Of a stretch of DNA of 64,000 nt, positions 7,646 through 64,000 are shown one piece after another. The notes beneath the pieces are model-generated. The model had not been told where the DNA came from. It did no database searches and saw only the letters and a program-made list of their open reading frames with translations. Origin of the DNA: Geodermatophilaceae bacterium NBWT11 (lineage in GTDB: Bacteria > Actinomycetota > Actinomycetes > Mycobacteriales > Geodermatophilaceae); assembly GCA_014218215.1 (NCBI GenBank), contig CP043652.1, positions 2,356,001 through 2,420,000 on the forward strand, in the 5' to 3' direction. The position numbers were made by a program, and so were the translations under genes. Position 1 is the first letter of the stretch. The number at the start of each line of letters is the position of its first letter.

Positions 7646-7659
7646 CCCTCACGTGAGGG
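7646..7659. promoter_or_regulatory. 14-bp perfect palindrome upstream of sulP-merR
   Basis: CCCTCACGTGAGGG is a perfect palindrome 126 bp before the SulP start. On the minus strand it lies between TGGACA (7668-7663) and TTGAGT (7645-7640), spaced 17 bp, which could be -35 and -10 elements. MerR proteins bind such palindromes inside promoter spacers, although their spacers are usually 19-20 bp. The location suggests autoregulation by the downstream MerR protein. Confidence 0.5.
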
Positions 7660-7679
7660 GAATGTCCACGTGCGTCGGG

Positions 7680-9104
7680 TCACAGTCGCTGCGGCACCGG
7701 CTCCGTGGGCCGCGGGGACAGCAGGGCGGCGACCGCCACGAGCCCCGGGAGGACCGCGCCGGCCAGCAGGGCCGGCCCGTAGCTGCCGGTGGCGTCCCGG
7801 ACCAGCGCGAACGCCACCGGCCCGAACGCCGTCGACCCGACGCTGACCGAGGCGACGACGCCGCGGATGGAGCCCAGGTGCGTCGTCCCGAAGTACCGGG
7901 GGAACGACCCGGCCTCCAGGGTGCGGATCGCTCCGCCGGCAGCCCCGATGGTCAGCCCGAAGCCCAGCGCGGACCACCCCGGGGTGACGACCGTGCCCCA
8001 CAGCAGGCCGCCGGCCAGCGGGAGCATGCAGGCGACGGCGAGCCGGCGGCCGTCGAACCGGTCGACCAGGGCCCCGACGGCCAGGGTGGACAGGAGCCCG
8101 GCCGCGGTCTGCGGCAGGAAGTTCGCCGCCGCCTCGGTGCTGCTCAGCCCGCGCTCCCCGAGCAGGTCGAGCTGGTGGAAGGTGACGCCGGTGGCCAGCA
8201 TCCCGGACACCGCGACCCCGGCGAGCACCACCCAGAAGAACGGGGTGCGGGCGGCCTGCCTGAGGGTGCGGCCCTCGACCGGTGGTGGTGCGGGACGGTC
8301 GGCGTCCACGCGGCCGTCGGGCACCTGCCCCAAGTCCGCGGGCCGGTCGAGCAGGCCGAGCACCGCCAGCGGGACGACGACCGCCCACACCACCAGCCCC
8401 TCGACCAGCCAGGCGGTCCGCCAGCCCTGCGTGGAGACGAGCACCTCCAGCCCGACCGGGGCCAGCGAGATCCCCGTCGCCCCGACGGCCGAGACGATCC
8501 CCAGCGCCAGGCCGCGGCGGCGGGTGAACCAGAACGCCACGGCGGTCGTGGCGGTCAACCCCAGTGCGCCCTGACCGGCCAGCCGGACGCCGACGAACCC
8601 CGCCGTCAGCCCGACCAGGCTGCTGACCAGGGACAACCCGACCAGGACGGCGCCGAACACCGCCCCGATGACGGCCATCGTCCGCCGGGCGCCGAACCGG
8701 TCCAGGGCCCTACCCACCAGGGGCATCGCAGCGGCGCCGGTGAGCGTGCCGACCAGGTAGGCGGTGGCGACCGCCGAGCGGCTGATGCCCAGCTCGGCGG
8801 TCACCGGGCCGATGAAGGCCGCGATGCCGGCGGTCTGGCCCGGGGCGGTCAGCGCCAGCGCGAGGGCCGAGACGCCGACGACGTGCCAGCCGTAGAACCC
8901 GCCGGGCGAGCGGCTGCGGAGCCTGGACGTGGGGTTCCTCCCGGGGTCGAGAGCCTCCGGGCAGGACCCTCGACGTACACCGTAAGCGTCTGCTTGACTC
9001 CTCGGGTGCGACCTGATGACGACGGGTTGCGCTCCTCGGTGCCGTCCCCGGCCGTGGGCGCCGACCTCGTCGTCCCCACGTCGGCCCGCGCCGGTGGGGC
9101 GCAC
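7680..9104 (-). CDS. MFS transporter (start uncertain)
   Basis: This is a twelve-helix major facilitator. The membrane part begins GGFYGWHVVGVSALALAL at about residue 67 and shows the loop motif GRALDRFGARRTMAV between helices 2 and 3. It is probably a small-molecule or monocarboxylate-type MFS protein; the substrate is unknown. The only ATG or GTG before the first helix is ATG 9104, which gives an odd ~65-residue Arg/Gly-rich leader. The true start may be non-standard or the 5' end may contain an indel. It is divergent from the LOV phosphatase gene. Confidence 0.82.
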   Translation of the reverse strand: MRPTGAGRRGDDEVGAHGRGRHRGAQPVVIRSHPRSQADAYGVRRGSCPEALDPGRNPTSRLRSRSPGGFYGWHVVGVSALALALTAPGQTAGIAAFIGPVTAELGISRSAVATAYLVGTLTGAAAMPLVGRALDRFGARRTMAVIGAVFGAVLVGLSLVSSLVGLTAGFVGVRLAGQGALGLTATTAVAFWFTRRRGLALGIVSAVGATGISLAPVGLEVLVSTQGWRTAWLVEGLVVWAVVVPLAVLGLLDRPADLGQVPDGRVDADRPAPPPVEGRTLRQAARTPFFWVVLAGVAVSGMLATGVTFHQLDLLGERGLSSTEAAANFLPQTAAGLLSTLAVGALVDRFDGRRLAVACMLPLAGGLLWGTVVTPGWSALGFGLTIGAAGGAIRTLEAGSFPRYFGTTHLGSIRGVVASVSVGSTAFGPVAFALVRDATGSYGPALLAGAVLPGLVAVAALLSPRPTEPVPQRL

Positions 9105-9149
9105 CGGGACGACGCGAGGGCCCCTGGGCGGGGTCCCTCAGCCGCGTCC

Positions 9150-11327
9150 GTGCACGCCCAGAGCGACGCGGTCGCCGCCGCCACGCAGGCCGCGGACCCC
9201 GCGTCCCCGGTGCCCAGTTCGGCCCTGCCGGCGATCCTCGGGGACGTGCCGGTCGCGGTGCTGCTCATCGACCAGTCCACCGGCGAGGTCACCTTCGCCA
9301 ACGGCGCGGCCATGGACCTGGCCGGCAAGGTGCCCCTGCCGGTGGCGACGGACAGCTGGGGCGCCGCCGCCGGGCTCACCGATCTCGACGGTCGCCCGCT
9401 CGCCGGCACCGATGCCCCGCTGTCCCGGGTGGCGGCGGGTCAGCCGCTGGCCGGGGAACCGGTCCGGTTGTCCCCGCGGCGCAGCGACGACCGCGAACGG
9501 GCCGGCGCCCACGACGGCCGGGACGACCAGCTGCTGTGGGTCACCGGGTTCCCGATGACCACGCCGGAGGCCTCCGCCACCGACCAGCAGGCGCTGTCGC
9601 TCGTGGTGTTCCTGCCGGTCGCCGACCCCGAGGCCCGCGACGGCGGGGTGCTGCTCCAGCGGCTGCGCGAGGGTGCGGTGGCCGCCACCGACATCTGCTT
9701 CACCATCAGCGACCCCCGGCAGCCCGACGACCCGCTGGTCTGGGTCAACCCCGCCTTCACCCGGGTCACCGGGTACTCGCTGGAGGAGGTGGTGGGCCGC
9801 AACTGCCGGTTCCTGCAGGGCCCGGCGACCGACCCTGCTGCCCTCGAGGAGCTGCGGGCCGGGCTGGCCGCGCGTCGTCCGGTGACCGTCACGCTGCTCA
9901 ACCACCGCAAGGACGGCACGGCGTTCTGGAACCAGCTGTCGGTGAGCCCGGTCCTCGACGGCGCCGGTGAGCTGGTCAGCTTCGTGGGCGTGCAGTCCGA
10001 CGTCTCCCAGCGGGTGGTCGCCGACGCCGAGCGGTCGCGGGCGCTGCGTGCGGAGACCGCGGCCCGGGAGACCGCCGAGCAGGCCCAGCAGCGGCTGCTG
10101 TTGATGGCCGAGGGCACCGGGCAGCTGTCGGCGACCCTGGACACCGGCGAGCTGCTCGACCGGCTCACCGGGATCTGCGTGCCGGGGCTGGGGGACTGGG
10201 CCTTCGCCGTGGGGCTGGACGACCACGGCCAGGTGGGCCGGGCGTCCGCCGCGCACCGGGACGGCGACCGGCCCGAGCTCGCCGGGCTCGTCGAGCTGGT
10301 CACCGGGCGGCCGCCGCCGTCCGGTTCGCCCGCCGCGGCCGCCATCGCCGACGGGACGGTGGGCCTCCTCGCCGACCTCACCCCGGAGGCGCTGGCCGGC
10401 CACGTCAGCACCGAGGCCGGTCGCCGGCTGATCGAGTCCCTCGGGATGCGGGCGCTGCTCACCGTGCCGATGACCGCGCGCGGTCGGACGCTCGGCGTGC
10501 TCAGCCTGGTGCGCACCGGCTCTCCCTTCGCCCCGGACGACGTCGAGGTGGCCACCGACCTCGGCCGCCGGGCGGCGATGGCGATGGACAACGCCCGGCT
10601 CTACCAGCTGGAGCAGTCGGTGGCCGAGACGCTGCAGCGCTCGCTGCTGCCCCAGCTGCCCGACGTCCCCGGGGTCACCGCGGTGGCGCACTACGAGGCC
10701 GCGTCCGCGGGGGCCGCGGTCGGTGGCGACTTCTACGACCTGATCGTGCTGCCGGACGGCGCGGTCGGGATCGCGATCGGTGACGTCGCCGGGCACGACA
10801 TCGACGCCGCGGCCGAGATGGGCCAGCTGCGCGGGCTGCTCCGGGCCTGCGCCTACGACGGTGGCAGCACCGAGCCCGGCCGGGTGCTCGACCGGCTGGA
10901 CCGGCTGGTGCTGGGTCTCGGGCTGCGCACCCTGGCGACCGTCACGTACGCCTGTGCCTGCCGGGCCGAGGACGGCAGCTGGACGCTGCACGTGGCCACC
11001 GCCGGGCACCCGCCGCTGCTCGTGCACGCACCGGACGGCGCCGTCCGGCAGCTGGACGACGTGCGCGGGCTGATGATCGGCGTGGCCGACGGCGCCTCAC
11101 GGGTCTCGGTGGCCCACCACCTGCCCGCCGGCAGCACGGTGCTCGCCTACACCGACGGGCTGGTCGAGCACCGCGGGCCGGACCTCGACGTGGGCACCGC
11201 CCAGCTGATGGCCGCCCTGGCCGCCGTCGGGCCGGTCACCGGACCGCAGGAGCTCTGCTCGACGGCGATGCGCCAGGTGGACGCCCGCCTCGACGACACC
11301 GCCTGCATCGGCGTCACCCTGCACTGA
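9150..11327 (+). CDS. PAS-LOV-GAF-PP2C (SpoIIE-type) blue-light phosphatase
   Basis: Domains for the 725-residue form: PAS at about 25-165; LOV at about 178-289 with GRNCRFLQ, its cysteine (Cys219) placed to form the flavin adduct, followed by NHRKDGTAFWN; GAF at about 322-494; and a SpoIIE/PP2C serine phosphatase at about 496-725 with metal-binding Asp in GGDFYD, IGDVAGHD, YTDGL and DDTACIGV. It should dephosphorylate an anti-sigma-antagonist (STAS) protein in response to blue light. GTG 9150 is used because it avoids overlap with the divergent MFS gene; in-frame GTG 9006 is an alternative. Confidence 0.88.
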   Translation: MHAQSDAVAAATQAADPASPVPSSALPAILGDVPVAVLLIDQSTGEVTFANGAAMDLAGKVPLPVATDSWGAAAGLTDLDGRPLAGTDAPLSRVAAGQPLAGEPVRLSPRRSDDRERAGAHDGRDDQLLWVTGFPMTTPEASATDQQALSLVVFLPVADPEARDGGVLLQRLREGAVAATDICFTISDPRQPDDPLVWVNPAFTRVTGYSLEEVVGRNCRFLQGPATDPAALEELRAGLAARRPVTVTLLNHRKDGTAFWNQLSVSPVLDGAGELVSFVGVQSDVSQRVVADAERSRALRAETAARETAEQAQQRLLLMAEGTGQLSATLDTGELLDRLTGICVPGLGDWAFAVGLDDHGQVGRASAAHRDGDRPELAGLVELVTGRPPPSGSPAAAAIADGTVGLLADLTPEALAGHVSTEAGRRLIESLGMRALLTVPMTARGRTLGVLSLVRTGSPFAPDDVEVATDLGRRAAMAMDNARLYQLEQSVAETLQRSLLPQLPDVPGVTAVAHYEAASAGAAVGGDFYDLIVLPDGAVGIAIGDVAGHDIDAAAEMGQLRGLLRACAYDGGSTEPGRVLDRLDRLVLGLGLRTLATVTYACACRAEDGSWTLHVATAGHPPLLVHAPDGAVRQLDDVRGLMIGVADGASRVSVAHHLPAGSTVLAYTDGLVEHRGPDLDVGTAQLMAALAAVGPVTGPQELCSTAMRQVDARLDDTACIGVTLH

Positions 11328-31205: not shown

Positions 31206-33461
31206 GTGACCGGAACGCCCCCTTCCGCCGACGTCCACGCCGTGCTCGCCGCGCGGGCCGTGACCAGCGTCTTCCAGCCCATCGTCGACCTCGACAGCGG
31301 CCGGGTCGTCGCCTACGAGGCGCTGGCGCGCGGCCCGGAGGGCGCCCTGCGCAGCCCCGACGCGCTGTTCGCCGCCGCCCGCGAGGCCGGCGTGCTGGCC
31401 GAGCTGGACGCCGCCTGCCGGGTGGCCGCGTTCCGCGGCGCGGTCGACGAGCACCTCCTCGCGCCCCTCACCGTCTTCGTCAACGTCGAGCCCGAGGTGC
31501 TCGACGGCGCCCCGCTCGACGAGCTGCTGGCGATCGCCCAGGGGGCCCCGGCCGAGCTCCGGGTCGTCGTGGAGATCACCGAGCGGGCGCTGGCCGCCCG
31601 GCCGGCCGAGCTGCTGCAGACCGTCCGGCGGGTCCGGGAGGTCGGCTGGGGCGTGGCCCTGGACGACGTCGGCGCCGACGCGGTCTCCCTGGCCTTCATG
31701 CCCCTGCTGCGCCCCGACGTCGTCAAGCTCGACCTGCGGCTGGTGCAGGACCGCCCGGGTCCGGCGGTCGCCGAGATCATGAACGCGGTCAACGCCTACG
31801 CCGAGCGCACCGGGGCCCTGGTGCTCGCCGAGGGCATCGAGACCCCGGAGCACCTCACCGCCGCGCTCGCCCTGGGCGCCACCCTCGGGCAGGGCTGGCT
31901 CTTCGGGCGCCCGGAGGCGGGCCCGGCCCCGCAGTTCGAGACCGCCGAGCTCGTGCTGCCCCCCGCGGCCGCGGCCGTCCCCGCGGTCGACGTCTCGCCC
32001 TTCGCCTGCCTGCCCCCGGGCACCCCGCTGCGCCGCTCGCCCAAGCTGCTGCTGATCGAGCTGAGCAAGCAGCTCGAGCGGCAGGCCATGCGGCTGGGGG
32101 AGACCTGCGTGGTCGCCGCGACCTTCCAGGAGGCCCGGCACCTCACCCCGTCCACCGTGCAGCGCTACCGCGAGCTGGCCGCCCGCACCGCCTTCGTCGC
32201 CGCCCTCGGCGACGGGCTGTCCACCGAGCCGGTCCCCGGTGTCCGTGGCGCCACGCTGGCCACCACCGACGAGGTCCGCGGCGAGTGGGACGTCGCCGTC
32301 CTCAGCCCGCACTTCAGCGCGGCGCTGCTGGCCCGCGACCTGGGCGACGACGGTCCGGAGCTGGAACGCACCTTCGAGTTCGCGCTCACCTACGACCGCG
32401 ACGTCGTCGCCCGCGCCACCCACGCCCTGGTCTCCCGGGTGGCCCCCCGGGAGACCCGGCTGCCGGTGGCCCGCCGGGCCGCGGCGGTCACCGCCCCCCG
32501 GGTCCCGGAGATCACGGTGACCGCGCCCGGCGCGGAGGGCCTGCTGCACCGGGCGATGGCCGCCACCAGCAGCGGCGTCGTCATCGTCGACATGCAGCTG
32601 CCCGACCAGCCGATGGTCTTCGTCAACCGCGCCTTCGAGCGGCTCTCCGGCTTCTCCCGCGACGAGGTGCTGGGCCGCAACTGCCGGTTCCTGCAGACCC
32701 CGGACACCGACCTGGCCGCCGTGGCCCGCATCCGGTCGGCCATCGCCGAGGGCCGGGAGTGCCGGGAGACCGTGCTCAACCACCGCGGCCCCGACCAGGT
32801 GCCCTGGTGGAACGAGCTGCACCTGGCGCCGGTGACCGACTCCGCCGGTCGGGTCGTGCAGTACATCGGCGTGCAGGACGACGTCACCGGCCGGGTGGAG
32901 GCCGAGCGCCGGCTGGCCCGCGAGCAGGACCGCACCCGGCAGCACCTGGGCCGGATCGAGCAGCTGGCCTACACCGACCCGCTCACCGGTCTGCCCAACC
33001 GGCGCCGGCTGCAGGAGCAGGTGGAGCTGGCGATGTGGGAGTCCGAGACCGCGGGCACCGCGGTGGGGCTGCTCTTCCTGGACCTCAACGGCTTCAAGGC
33101 CGTCAACGACCGCTTCGGCCACGCGGTGGGCGACGAGCTGCTCGTGGTCGTCAGCCGCCGGGTGCGCAGCCTGCTCCGGCGCACCGACCTGCTCGCCCGG
33201 CTCGGTGGGGACGAGTTCCTCGTCGCCCTGCCCGGTCTGGACCCCTCCCGCGCGCAGGCGGAGGCGGCCCGGGTCGTCGACACCCTCGTCGCCGGGGTCG
33301 CCCTGCCGATCGAGCTGGACGGCGAGGTGGTGACGGTGGGGGCGAGCATCGGTGCCGCGGTGTCCCCGACCGACGGCGTCGACTTCGCCACCCTCCTGCA
33401 CGCCGCGGACCTGCGGATGTACGCCCTCAAGGAGCAGCGCCGGGAGGCCGTGGGCGTCTGA
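31206..33461 (+). CDS. EAL-DICT-LOV-GGDEF cyclic-di-GMP enzyme with blue-light domain
   Basis: The order of the 751-residue protein is EAL phosphodiesterase (about 15-245; VAYEALARG with Glu38-Ala-Leu, VVEITERAL, LDDVGADAV, VKLDL, LAEGIE), DICT (about 263-400; KLLLIELSKQLERQAM), LOV (about 440-560; GRNCRFLQ with Cys493) and GGDEF cyclase (about 575-750; RLGGDEF at 667-671). The inhibitory RxxD (RRTD) sits five residues before GGDEF. All key residues appear intact, so it could both make and break cyclic-di-GMP under light control. EAL-first order is unusual. GTG 31206 is chosen; GTG 31128 is possible. Confidence 0.88.
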   Translation: MTGTPPSADVHAVLAARAVTSVFQPIVDLDSGRVVAYEALARGPEGALRSPDALFAAAREAGVLAELDAACRVAAFRGAVDEHLLAPLTVFVNVEPEVLDGAPLDELLAIAQGAPAELRVVVEITERALAARPAELLQTVRRVREVGWGVALDDVGADAVSLAFMPLLRPDVVKLDLRLVQDRPGPAVAEIMNAVNAYAERTGALVLAEGIETPEHLTAALALGATLGQGWLFGRPEAGPAPQFETAELVLPPAAAAVPAVDVSPFACLPPGTPLRRSPKLLLIELSKQLERQAMRLGETCVVAATFQEARHLTPSTVQRYRELAARTAFVAALGDGLSTEPVPGVRGATLATTDEVRGEWDVAVLSPHFSAALLARDLGDDGPELERTFEFALTYDRDVVARATHALVSRVAPRETRLPVARRAAAVTAPRVPEITVTAPGAEGLLHRAMAATSSGVVIVDMQLPDQPMVFVNRAFERLSGFSRDEVLGRNCRFLQTPDTDLAAVARIRSAIAEGRECRETVLNHRGPDQVPWWNELHLAPVTDSAGRVVQYIGVQDDVTGRVEAERRLAREQDRTRQHLGRIEQLAYTDPLTGLPNRRRLQEQVELAMWESETAGTAVGLLFLDLNGFKAVNDRFGHAVGDELLVVVSRRVRSLLRRTDLLARLGGDEFLVALPGLDPSRAQAEAARVVDTLVAGVALPIELDGEVVTVGASIGAAVSPTDGVDFATLLHAADLRMYALKEQRREAVGV

Positions 33462-33596
33462 GCAGCGGAACCACCGCTGACCGGAACCAGGAGGACCGTC
33501 GACTCGGCGCGAGCCCGACCGGGACCTGTCGAACGTCCGGTGAGGGACGACGTCGTGACCACGGCGGACGGCACCCCGCCTCGCTCAGGAGTCCCC

Positions 33597-35012
33597 GTGT
33601 TCACCGCCCTGCACCGCCCCCGCCCCACGTCCGCCGCCGGGCCGACCGGACCCGGAGCCGGAGCCGATGCCGACATCGACGCGGTCACCGCGGTCGTCAC
33701 CGGGCTGGCCCGCGCGCGATCGGCCGAGGAGGCCGTCGACCTCGCCCTGCAGGCGGTGCGCACCGCGTTCGGCTGGGGCCACGGGTCCTACCGGACCGTG
33801 GAGCCGGCCGAGGGCTCGGCCGGGCGGGCGTGGGCGACCGGTGAGCTGGTGCACGCGCCCGACGAGGCCGTGGTCTGCCTCCCGCTGACCGCCGCCGGGG
33901 TCGTCGTCGGCGTCCTGGAGTTCCCCGGCGCCGGCCCGCTCGGCGGCCGCCGCCTCGCCACGCTGCGGTGCGTGGGCGTGCTGGTGTCCCAGGCGCTGGA
34001 GCGTGCCGCCCTCGCCGAGGAACAGGACCGGACCGCCCAGGACGTCGCCGCCGTCACCGGGGTGCTGGAGCTGCTGACCGCGGCGACCGACGCCGACGCC
34101 GCCCTCGGCGTGGCCCTGGACACCGTCCGCCGGGACTTCGGCTGGGCCTACGGCTCCTTCTGGCGGGTGGACCCCGCTGCCGGGGTGCTGCGCTTCGAGC
34201 GGGAGTCCGGGGACGCCGGCCCGGAGTTCCGCGCCGTCACCCTCGCGGCCACCTTCGCCCCCGGGGTCGGGTTGGCCGGGCGGGCCTGGCAGGCCGACGA
34301 CCTGGTCTCCGTCGCCGACCTGGGCGAGCTCACCGACTGCGTGCGGGCGCCGGCCGCCCAGCGCGCCGGTGTCCGGTCCGGGGTGTGCCTGCCCGTGCGG
34401 GTCGGGGGTCGGGTGGTCGGCACGATGGACTTCTTCGCGCTGACGACCCTGACCCTCTCCGCGGGCCGGCGGGCCGCGCTGCGCAACACCGCCTTCCTGC
34501 TCGGCAGCGCCCTGGACCGGATCGCCGCGACCGAGCAGCTGGCCTCCGCCGGCCGGGAGCTGGTCGCCTCCATCGAGGAGGTGGAGCGCAACGTGCTGTC
34601 CGCGACCTCGGTGGCCGGCGAGGGCCGGCGGCTGGCCGAGGCCGCCCACGAGGTGGTCGCCCAGCTCGGGGACTCCAGCCGCCAGGTCGGACAGGTCGCC
34701 GTCACGATCGGCACCATCGCCGGGCAGACCAACCTGCTGGCCCTCAACGCCACCATCGAGGCCGCCCGGGCGGGGGAGGCCGGCCGCGGCTTCGCCGTGG
34801 TCGCCAACGAGGTGAAGGAGCTGGCCCGGGAGACCGCGACCGCCACCACCGACGTCACCGCGAGGATCACCGCCATCCAGGAGCAGGTGGACGCCGTCGT
34901 GGCCACCCTGGGCGGCATCGGCGCGGTGATCGAGCAGATCAACGAGACCCAGGCCGTGATCGGCGGCGTGCTGACCGAACAGGTGGCCGTCACCCGGGGG
35001 ATCCTGGACTGA
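33597..35012 (+). CDS. Soluble GAF-GAF methyl-accepting chemotaxis-type protein
   Basis: This 471-residue protein has no membrane segment. Two GAF-like repeats (about 25-140 and 155-310; both contain [24 protein letters not shown]) are followed by a short MCP signalling region with the hairpin tip [33 protein letters not shown] at about 375-410. The signalling domain is shorter than in standard chemoreceptors. No che genes are nearby, so it may signal to a distant or non-chemotactic system. GTG 33597 is chosen because CAGGAG lies 5 bases upstream. Confidence 0.87.
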
Positions 35013-61597: not shown

Positions 61598-62044
61598 ATG
61601 GCCACCGTCGAACGACACGTCTCCGCCGAGCCCGCCGCCGTCTGGGCCGTGCTGGCCGACGGCTGGGCCTACAGCAACTGGGTGGTGGGCGCCTCGCACG
61701 TGCGCGCCGTCGAGGCGGCGTGGCCTGCCGTCGGCACCCGCATCCACCACGCCCAGGGCAACTGGCCGGTGACCCTGGACGACGAGGCGGTCGTCGAGCA
61801 GAGCGAGCCCGGGCGCCGGCTGGTGCTGCTGGCCAAGGGCCGCCCGCTCGGCTCGGCTCGGGTGGAGGTCGTCCTGCACCCCGCCGACGGCGGCACCCGC
61901 GTGGTCTTCACCGAGACCCCGGTGTCCGGGCCGGGCAGCTGGCTGCACAACCCGGTCAGCGAGGCGGTGCTGGTCAAGCGGAACGTCGAGGCGCTGTCCC
62001 GGCTGGCCGCGATCGCCGAGCGCCGGACCACGCCTCAGGACTGA
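61598..62044 (+). CDS. SRPBCC-family protein (polyketide cyclase/dehydrase-like)
   Basis: This 148-residue protein has TVERHVSAEPAAVWAVLADGWAYSNWVVGASHVRAV, the SRPBCC entry pattern, and GGTRVVFTETPVSGPGSW and a C-terminal long helix (RNVEALSRLAAIAE). It follows another SRPBCC gene by 16 bp, forming a tandem pair. ATG 61598 follows AGGAG-type sequence. Its end overlaps the end of the YcaO gene by 10 bp. Confidence 0.9.
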   Translation: MATVERHVSAEPAAVWAVLADGWAYSNWVVGASHVRAVEAAWPAVGTRIHHAQGNWPVTLDDEAVVEQSEPGRRLVLLAKGRPLGSARVEVVLHPADGGTRVVFTETPVSGPGSWLHNPVSEAVLVKRNVEALSRLAAIAERRTTPQD

Positions 62045-63462
62045 GCGAGCCGCTGGGGTGCGTGCCGGGTGGGCTCCCGGTACAGCGGGTACAGCTCGCC
62101 GACCGTGCGGGCCACGGCGGCGACGTCGAGCCAGGCCGGCCCGCCGACCCGCTCGGTGGCCTCGGGGGTGAGCCGCACGGGCCGGCGGTCCGGGCCCTCG
62201 GCGACCCCCAGCCCCACGAGGTCGCTGCCCCTCGCCAGCAGCCGCCGCAGCACTCGCTCGCCGATCCGGCCGTAGGACAGCGTCTCCACCTCCAGGCCCG
62301 GGACCAGCACCTTGGCCACGTGCACCCCGCGCACCCCGGTCGCGGCGACGAGCAGGTCGAACCCGGCCAGCCGCTCCCGGTACAGCGCCAGCGTCTCCGC
62401 CGGCCCGTGCACCGCCGACGTGGGCAGTCCGGCGAAGGGCACCTCGGTGCGGCGCGCCCACAGCGGGGCGAGCAGGTCCGTCAGCTCGGCGGTGCCCAGG
62501 CCGGTCCAGGCGGTCATCGCCGCCAGCGCCCGGGGCTCCTGCTCGGGGAGCGGGGTGGCCAGCTCGTCGGCCAGGTAGTCCGGGTGCCGGGCCCGCACCC
62601 CGGCCAGCGGGCCGAACGCGAACGCCCGCCGGGCTCGGGAGGACGCCAGCTCCAGCACGGCCTTGCGCACCGCCTCCGCCCGGTCGGGGGCGGCGGCCTC
62701 GCCGATCGCGCTGACCACCACCGGCACCTCGGCCGCCGGGTCGGTGGCCACCGCGTGCACGACGACGGCGAACTCCGTGCTGGCCAGCTTCACCGTCACC
62801 TGCAGCCCGGCCGCCTCCAGCGCGGCGATCGCGGCGAGGGCCTGGGGGTCGTCGATGCCGGTGACCACCCGGCCGGTGTCCAGGGCGCGGAAGTCCACGG
62901 TGTTGCCGTGCCGCTGGAGCAGCTCCCCGATGCCGTGGCCCACGGCCCGCTCGATCGTGTCCCCGGCGCCCATGCCGTTGGTGATCGGGGTGACCAGCCA
63001 GCCCCCGGCCGGGGGAGGAGCGGCGATGCCGGCGGCGTGCGGGGCGACGAACTCGGCCGGCACCAGCACCTCCTCCCCGGTCGCCCAGCGGGTGGTGGGC
63101 AGCCAGCGCAGCGGCCGGTCCGGGTCGTCGTCCACGCCGGCGGGGAGCACCAGCGTGCGCGGGTCGGCCACCCGGTCGGCCCCGCGCTCGGCCACCAGCT
63201 CGCGGAAGGAGGCGGTGCGCGGCTCCCGGGCCAGCAGCGCGTCGTCGAGCAGCACCTGCTCGGCCAGCTCGCCCCACGCGCCGATCGCCGCGGCCTCCTC
63301 GGTCGCCCCGTAACCCACGCCGTGCCCCGACCGGGTGCCGTCGGCAGCCCGCCACACCGTGGCGGTGACCGGGATGCCGGTGCGGTCGTAGCCGCGCAGG
63401 TCCAGCTCGGTGGTGCGGCCCTCGGGCAGGGCGGCGCGGTAGGCGGCAGCGGGGTCGGTCAC
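62035..63462 (-). CDS. Stand-alone YcaO-domain protein
   Basis: This 475-residue protein has YcaO signatures: HGVGYGATEEAAAIGAWGELAEQVL, GWLVTPITNGMGAGDTIERAVGHGIGELLQRHGNTV, FAVVVHAVATD, and AVRKAVLELASSRARRAFAF. The conserved glutamates and arginine of the ATP-binding region appear present. YcaO enzymes activate peptide amides for azoline or thioamide formation, usually with a precursor peptide and E1-like or TfuA partner; none is visible nearby. Function is open. GTG 63462 is the start. Confidence 0.82.
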   Translation of the reverse strand: MTDPAAAYRAALPEGRTTELDLRGYDRTGIPVTATVWRAADGTRSGHGVGYGATEEAAAIGAWGELAEQVLLDDALLAREPRTASFRELVAERGADRVADPRTLVLPAGVDDDPDRPLRWLPTTRWATGEEVLVPAEFVAPHAAGIAAPPPAGGWLVTPITNGMGAGDTIERAVGHGIGELLQRHGNTVDFRALDTGRVVTGIDDPQALAAIAALEAAGLQVTVKLASTEFAVVVHAVATDPAAEVPVVVSAIGEAAAPDRAEAVRKAVLELASSRARRAFAFGPLAGVRARHPDYLADELATPLPEQEPRALAAMTAWTGLGTAELTDLLAPLWARRTEVPFAGLPTSAVHGPAETLALYRERLAGFDLLVAATGVRGVHVAKVLVPGLEVETLSYGRIGERVLRRLLARGSDLVGLGVAEGPDRRPVRLTPEATERVGGPAWLDVAAVARTVGELYPLYREPTRHAPQRLAQS

Positions 63463-63497
63463 GCACCCACGGTGCCCGGCCGGCCGGCCCGGCACAC

Positions 63498-64000
63498 TCA
63501 GTCCCGGCGGGGGCGCCCGCGCTTGACCACGTACATCGCCTCGTCGGCCGCGGTCAGCATGGTCTCCGGGGTCGACGCGGGCCCGCTGAGCGCGACGCCG
63601 ACGCTGACCCCGACCTGGTGCCGGCCGGCGCTGGACCACAGCGGATCGGTCATCGCCTCGGTCACCCGCTCGGCGAGCGCGGCCGCCACGGCGGGGTCGG
63701 CGACCTCGGGGCACATGAGCACGAACTCGTCGCCCCCGATGCGGGCGGCGGTGTCGCCGGGCCGGACGACGGCGGCGAGCCGGACCGCGGCCTGGGCCAG
63801 CACCTCGTCCCCGGCGGCGTGCCCGTGCGCGTCGTTGACGGCCTTGAACCCGTCGAGGTCGCAGTACAGCAGGGCCACCTGGTCACCCCGGCGGGCGGCG
63901 GCGACCAGGGCGTGGTCGAGCCGGTCGACCAGCAGGCTGCGGTTGGGCAGCCCGGTCAGCGGGTCGTGCAGCGCCGCGGTGCGCAGCTGCTCCTCCAGCT
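63498..64000 (-). CDS. GGDEF diguanylate cyclase, C-terminal part (cut by window edge)
   Basis: The visible ~167 C-terminal residues form a complete GGDEF domain: LHDPLTGLPNRSLLVDRLDHAL, LLYCDLDGFKAVNDAHGHAAGDE, IGGDEFVLMCPE, VGVSVGVAL and AADEAMYVVKRG. The product-inhibition RxxD (RPGD) lies five residues before GGDEF. The N-terminal sensor is outside the window, so the signal is unknown. It makes cyclic-di-GMP. It ends 36 bp before the YcaO start on the same strand. Confidence 0.92.
   Translation of the reverse strand, partial: LEEQLRTAALHDPLTGLPNRSLLVDRLDHALVAAARRGDQVALLYCDLDGFKAVNDAHGHAAGDEVLAQAAVRLAAVVRPGDTAARIGGDEFVLMCPEVADPAVAAALAERVTEAMTDPLWSSAGRHQVGVSVGVALSGPASTPETMLTAADEAMYVVKRGRPRRD

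Follow-up and report, generated by a model that had tools for sequence, protein, structure and literature searches.

The gene at positions 31206..33461 on the forward strand of the analysed 64,000-nt stretch of Geodermatophilaceae bacterium NBWT11 DNA (the window) encodes a protein that combines, in this order, an EAL, a DICT, a LOV and a GGDEF domain. In our view it represents a variant of the light-regulated cyclic-di-GMP enzymes that is conserved in actinobacteria; most likely, a tether joins a light-switched cyclase to a phosphodiesterase linked to DICT. No description of the EAL-DICT-LOV-GGDEF architecture was found in the accessible parts of the open-access literature; it may appear in the LOV survey Glantz 2016. 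The unusual and conserved layout makes the protein well suited for examining how switches of this kind are constructed.

Translation starts with a GTG codon at 31206, the stop codon ends at 33461, and the product comprises 751 aa. The extent of the gene was delineated by translation, Pfam and full-length relatives. In a Pfam search of the 751-aa protein, EAL (145 bits), DICT (PF10069, 43.2 bits compared with a cut-off of 23.8), PAS_9 (58.1 bits), the Pfam family that includes LOV, and GGDEF (147.4 bits) each exceeded the curated cut-off. This search detected all four domains and bears out the order given in a preliminary description of this DNA, including the DICT-like region between EAL and LOV. 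The EAL domain comprises residues 15-236 (31248..31913). The DICT domain spans residues 265-415 (31998..32450) as folded in an AlphaFold2 model, with the Pfam match at 278-378. LOV extends over residues 443-561 (32532..32888; PAS_9 match at 458-561) and GGDEF, delimited by Pfam and motif columns, over residues 588-747 (32967..33446); all features are on the forward strand. Among the best 25 of 32 matched NCBIfam models, no curated family for the whole protein was seen and the GGDEF domain model alone passed its cut-off.

The preliminary description had considered all motifs intact, which is correct for the LOV core, the GGDEF motif, the RxxD site and the EAL catalytic residues and incorrect for EAL loop 6. 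The LOV domain contains the core GRNCRFLQ with the adduct cysteine C493 (32682-32684) and the Asn, Asn and Gln at the flavin positions. In the GGDEF domain the GG(D/E)EF motif (33204-33218), the metal Asp and an I-site RxxD of the sequence RRTD (33177-33188) are all present. The EAL domain possesses E38, N93, E123, E126, D153, D154, K174, E209, E212 and Q229, which we take to be the catalytic residues, and all eleven metal, substrate and catalytic-base positions checked are kept. Its loop 6 (residues 153-162, 31662..31691) is atypical, reading DDVGADAVSL instead of the usual DDFG(T)GYSS type, and thus deviates from the conserved loop 6.

Within the 4.59 Mb genome, a single contig, 27 GGDEF and 19 EAL matches were obtained. 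Both domains occur together in 17 frames; comparison by hand of the separate GGDEF and EAL searches placed GGDEF first in 16 of them and EAL first only in the gene described here, consistent with the earlier statement that GGDEF before EAL is the usual order of hybrids. GGDEF also precedes EAL in all 17 other hybrid frames among L228-L250 of a class-wide LOV-GGDEF search, which were picked by similarity and are not a random sample. Moreover, the gene product is the sole DICT protein of the genome.

Among relatives the situation is different. We collected 128 distinct EAL-DICT proteins, a set biased to close relatives, to which the homologue search contributed the best 80 of 431. Since the four-domain layout recurs in 86 of them, the EAL-first order is not due to chance; it is standard in a conserved family of actinobacterial proteins, rare in its own genome and not a one-off. 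The remaining proteins are 27 EAL-DICT, 9 EAL-DICT-GGDEF and 6 EAL-DICT-LOV, and 36 of the 128 are without LOV. Outside the set are L073, with EAL and DICT in different frames, and seven proteins found later (L204-L206, L211-L214), all with 21-residue linkers by reading. The nearest named relative of the gene, among the best 80 of 431, stems from a Klenkia MAG of the Geodermatophilaceae (90% identity, L002). The four-domain form is present in Klenkia, Modestobacter, Blastococcus, Geodermatophilus, Goekera, Trujillonella, Kineococcus, Motilibacter and Cellulomonas, among others. A class-wide sample of 394 genomes contained 47 with a DICT match. By hand count the 64 matches comprise 14 four-domain proteins (including the present one), 20 EAL-DICT proteins, 3 with DICT and GGDEF without EAL, 21 with DICT and none of the other three domains, 5 that were not recognised by the local models and 1 (G425:C142) that was not fetched.

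Two further observations concern the distribution. A contig labelled Candidatus Melainabacteria (L052) carries a four-domain relative with 57% identity that is placed among the actinobacterial ones in the tree; it is either a misbinned contig or a transfer. Three genomes of the same genus as NBWT11 encode EAL-LOV-GGDEF proteins that have a 21-residue linker and no DICT (L204, L205, L206).

That the enzymes flank the sensors, as previously emphasised, is true as a description of the layout, but LOV directly adjoins GGDEF, which makes these two domains an ordinary sensor-effector pair. The linker between them, measured as defined in PMC10396304, runs for 35 residues from D559 of DVT to L593 of DPLT (32880..32984). 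Its length is 35 residues in 79 of 84 measurable relatives and 21 residues in the other 5; L054 and L066, which have lost the LOV residues, were excluded from the 84 and have linkers of 33 and 35 residues by alignment. The adduct cysteine and the Asn, Asn and Gln are kept in 87 of 89 LOV-bearing relatives. These domains, residues, linker lengths and their conservation are established by the sequence.

LOV-activated diguanylate cyclases (LadC) have two linker lengths, 35 and 21 residues (PMC10396304). All four LadC proteins assayed were stimulated by blue light, those with short linkers about 15-fold and those with long linkers more than 10,000-fold (PMC10396304, PMC12805367). The filters described for LadC in PMC10396304 were compared with our protein. 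It has one LOV and one C-terminally linked GGDEF according to the Pfam order, its GRNCRFLQ matches the core motif Gx(N/D)C(R/H)(F/I)L(Q/A), and its distance from D(I/V)(T/S) to the L of DxLT is 35, one of the two lengths admitted (35 or 21). The motifs FxxxT(G/E)Y and N(Y/F)xxx(G/D)xx(F/L)xN do not occur literally, the protein reading FERLSGF and NHRGPDQVPWWN instead. These are conservative variants, yet the protein is not classed as a LadC because it does not match two of the three LOV motifs as literally written.

Light control, as proposed in the preliminary description, is therefore to be divided. For the GGDEF half, the photochemical residues and the length of the linker, 35 residues, lend it good support. 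Control of both enzymes by this one sensor is no more than possible in view of the disordered tether described below and the many EAL-DICT proteins that do without LOV, and the relatives argue both ways. Furthermore, the right parts alone do not prove light control, since, according to the accessible text of PMC10396304, no light-regulated synthesis was seen with LOV-GGDEF fragments from two LOV-GGDEF-EAL proteins whose linkers have 21 residues.

The dark state might also differ. When the PDB sequence alignment was read by eye with an inferred numbering offset of 7, the inhibitory-interface residues D44, E46 and R174 of MsLadC were found to be S, D, and T or A here, i.e. they are not kept. The position of MsLadC K140 is occupied by L in 69 of 79 relatives, and K140V had the highest dark activity among the MsLadC variants tested (PMC10396304). 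Hence, a dark state leakier than that of MsLadC appears plausible. At the position of Q122, 69 of 79 relatives have R, as do most LadC proteins (PMC10396304). Separate fusion origins of the 35- and 21-residue classes were not supported in approximately unbiased (AU) tests, in which one joint clade was not rejected (p 0.934 for the GGDEF tree with 65 rows, p 0.727 for the LOV tree with 35 rows), a result that does not prove a single origin.

The AlphaFold2 model of the full-length protein has a mean pLDDT of 92.4 and a pTM of 0.63, hence the packing of the domains is unsure. It contains one clear break between DICT and LOV, where residues 421-440 within the tether (residues 416-442, 32451..32531) have a pLDDT <50, while an unbroken predicted helix (residues 561-589) bridges LOV and GGDEF. 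Because of this break and this continuous helix, the protein appears to consist of two modules, EAL-DICT and LOV-GGDEF, joined by a flexible tether. In a Foldseek search with the whole model, MsLadC (PDB 8c05, E 4.6e-25) ranked first, and it was also the second-best PDB match by sequence; 8c05 is the dark structure of this long-linker LadC (PMC10396304).

The explanation that we favour, though with confidence that does not exceed an even balance, is a cytosolic two-module cyclic-di-GMP switch composed of an EAL-DICT phosphodiesterase and a blue-light-switched LOV-GGDEF diguanylate cyclase. For this we infer that the protein binds flavin and forms dimers, that both halves are catalytic, that light acts in the direction described here and that DICT senses a signal. 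EAL-DICT would be the phosphodiesterase module, probably set by whatever DICT senses. Blue light would lead to a flavin-cysteine adduct at C493, upon which the 35-residue signal helix would change register and the two GGDEF domains of a dimer would become aligned, so that cyclic-di-GMP could be made; over-production would be limited by the RxxD I-site. In darkness, breakdown of cyclic-di-GMP would prevail. If both halves work as read, one polypeptide would set the level of cyclic-di-GMP by weighing light against a second signal.

What this second signal might be depends on DICT, which a 2022 review counted among the domains without discernible physiological purpose (PMC8846402). A separate AlphaFold2 model of residues 250-417 (31953-32456) reached a pLDDT of 93.1 and a pTM of 0.87. 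Foldseek against the PDB returned three matches with E <=0.001, namely 4urj (human BJ-TSA-9), the sugar-binding domain of TrmB (2f5t, E 7.3e-4) and Zucchini (4gel, E 9.9e-4), followed by polyphosphate kinases and phospholipase D. Presumably, 4urj is a phospholipase-D-like domain as well. The first six matches in a viral structure library included a polyphosphate-kinase domain, a NucT-like nuclease and PLD-like proteins. TM-scores by query were moderate, with 0.41-0.43 for the matches with E <=0.001 and 0.39-0.55 over the first eleven, 0.55 being reached by the polyphosphate kinase 1xdo; therefore the likeness is a lead only. The HxKxxxxD (HKD) motif was found in none of 71 DICT sequences. By eye, the HxK hairpin of phospholipase D corresponds to the conserved residues E360-W361 of DICT (E in 69/71, W in 70/71). 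Searches of PDB and Pfam with the DICT sequence found no relative of the phospholipase-D/TrmB type. We take this as a lead towards a phospholipase-D/TrmB-type fold, with DICT at most a non-catalytic relative, and as a hint at what kind of sensor DICT may be.

Other sequence matches of DICT were weak. The single sequence gave one weak PDB match (2r5v, E 0.0096), and a DICT profile gave one match to a designed repeat protein (7on7) whose stretches fail singly; both were taken as chance. Pfam CHASE6_C was weakly matched by 23 of the 71 DICT sequences (best E 0.0013), and the DICT and CHASE6_C sensor families may be related.

In a tentative extension of the two-module switch, possible but doubtful in our view, the protein would act as a two-input comparator. 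DICT would be a non-catalytic ligand binder of the phospholipase-D/TrmB type whose small-molecule signal governs breakdown, blue light sensed by LOV would govern synthesis, and the balance within one molecule would decide the response. In that case, the 35/21 linker rule known from stand-alone LOV cyclases would apply to a protein with the reverse domain order as well.

The natural domain losses among the relatives bear on the question which enzyme LOV acts upon. They were counted in 125 of the 128 proteins, after L047, L049 and L068, whose EAL or GGDEF is incomplete or off-frame, had been dropped. Both LOV and GGDEF are intact in 74 proteins, LOV is intact with a degenerate GGDEF in 7 and without any GGDEF in 6, GGDEF is degenerate with LOV absent in 9 and with the LOV residues lost in 2, and 27 have neither domain. 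Accordingly, among the members that possess a GGDEF domain, it is degenerate in all 11 with a missing or degenerate LOV and intact in 74 of the 81 with an intact LOV. As no intact GGDEF was found once LOV is gone or degenerate, this suggests that keeping GGDEF pays off only when LOV controls it. On the best EAL-DICT tree, from which L047, L049, L068 and L197 were left out, the association corresponds to three independent events, two of them on well supported branches; a sign test on two or three events cannot reach 0.05, and we attach no significance to the decay of GGDEF with the loss of LOV. However, the relatives also argue in the other direction. LOV outlives GGDEF in the 13 members with a degenerate (7) or absent (6) GGDEF, which suggests a role beyond driving the cyclase, namely that in those proteins LOV also acts on EAL-DICT, either directly or through the dead GGDEF.

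Taken further, these losses would fit a light-regulated phosphodiesterase, in which LOV acts mainly on EAL via the packing of the dimer, whereas GGDEF serves as a helper, either GTP-sensing or structural, and is lost in some cases. A precedent exists in SL2 of Synechococcus elongatus (PMC8846402). All seven members with a degenerate GGDEF and all six EAL-DICT-LOV members have intact LOV residues, and EAL is degenerate in none of the 98 fused members, compared with 18 of the 92 GGDEF domains. Nevertheless, we consider this rather unlikely for the protein at 31206-33461, because its GGDEF domain and I-site are intact, the disordered tether separates LOV from EAL-DICT, the linker ahead of GGDEF is fixed at 35 or 21 residues, and GGDEF has decayed in all 11 members that possess it with a missing or degenerate LOV.

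Some of the deviating relatives deserve mention. In Blastococcus (L010, L011, L030, L062, L072), a LOV-less EAL-DICT-GGDEF paralogue with degenerate GGDEF lies within ~640 bases after the full gene. L194 has no LOV and has kept a helix-like linker, which fits a trace of LOV loss. The Modestobacter EAL-DICT-LOV proteins L058, L059, L060, L064, L071 and L081, with intact LOV residues and no GGDEF, stop soon past the LOV helix and share a DSPG-like ending.

Clearly less probable is that the protein is a light-switched cyclase in which the EAL half, owing to its altered loop 6, serves as a cyclic-di-GMP-binding receptor or feedback domain and not as an enzyme. Loop 6 reads DDVGAD or DDVGAE in 106 of the 128 family members, whereas the 15 other EAL frames of the genome caught by the pattern have DDFG in 14 cases and DDVG in one, and, according to the accessible text of PMC5845226, activity requires the EAL motif as well as loop 6. 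Moreover, GGDEF-EAL tandems commonly have one inactive half, though bifunctional ones exist (PMC9587094). Among the 27 unfused EAL-DICT relatives the catalytic set is intact in 19 and incomplete in 8, one of these a partial frame. In contrast, every one of the 98 members fused to LOV and/or GGDEF retains the metal, substrate and catalytic-base residues, a stricter conservation than mere binding ought to require. The dN/dS of EAL, 0.10-0.30 with respect to four relatives by the Nei-Gojobori method, also speaks against a non-enzyme. The other ratios were 0.18, 0.35, 0.34 and 0.41 for the whole protein, 0.23-0.50 for GGDEF and 0.52-1.18 for the short helix, the latter noisy due to few synonymous changes and all of them a rough guide given a simple method on very G+C-rich DNA. 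We lean towards an active enzyme because all metal- and substrate-binding residues are present, and regard EAL-DICT as a probable phosphodiesterase.

That the flavin domain reports redox state or oxygen instead of light we hold to be highly improbable: a LOV-like PAS domain of Pseudomonas RmcA has been tied to both light and phenazines (PMC8846402), and the Kineococcus paralogues L054 and L066 persist after loss of the cysteine and its companion residues, but a pure redox sensor would not need the adduct cysteine that nearly all LOV-bearing relatives have kept together with its Asn and Gln partners.

A gene encoding a GAF-GAF-MCP protein (33540-35012, forward strand) follows 78 bases downstream of the EAL-DICT-LOV-GGDEF gene. 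A conserved operon was considered and rejected. Among the loci of the 80 best of 431 relatives, the TetR, hydrolase and asparagine-synthase neighbours had no match, the GAF-MCP gene at least one (L017) and the ABC-type gene at least two (L002, L016), these counts of 0, 1 and 2 being lower bounds as some of the loci are short. In L002, an ABC-type gene stands at ~90 bases after the EAL gene in place of the GAF-MCP gene. Three PilZ matches make it probable that cyclic-di-GMP receptors exist in the genome. Four further LOV proteins with GRNC motifs are encoded in the genome, one of them within the window. This second LOV protein of the window (7653-11327, forward strand) combines PAS_9, GAF and a C-terminal SpoIIE phosphatase domain, with LOV at 9666-10022 and the core GRNCRFLQ. 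The window also encodes a YcaO-family protein (62035-63714, reverse strand, 142 bits).

Several known systems are close to the protein reported here. The two-domain EAL-DICT proteins of actinobacteria (27 of the 128) share the EAL-DICT module and the type of loop 6 but are without LOV or GGDEF. If both halves work as read, the relatives would constitute a natural domain-deletion series for testing the role of each part. With SL2, which contains LOV, GGDEF and EAL and hydrolyses cyclic-di-GMP in blue light (PMC8846402), our protein has in common a single LOV domain plus both cyclic-di-GMP domains in one polypeptide. It differs in that SL2 is a blue-light-activated phosphodiesterase for which the accessible text of PMC8846402 names no DICT, whereas in the present protein GGDEF is the domain coupled to LOV, and EAL with DICT stands at the front. 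Like LadC, the protein has LOV followed by GGDEF through a heptad-like 35-residue linker, the adduct cysteine and the DxLT and GGDEF motifs are shared, and the linkers of the family likewise fall into classes of 35 and 21 residues. Unlike in stand-alone LadC proteins, an EAL-DICT part of ~415 residues precedes LOV-GGDEF, and the linkers extend the rule of the stand-alone LOV cyclases to an EAL-first hybrid.
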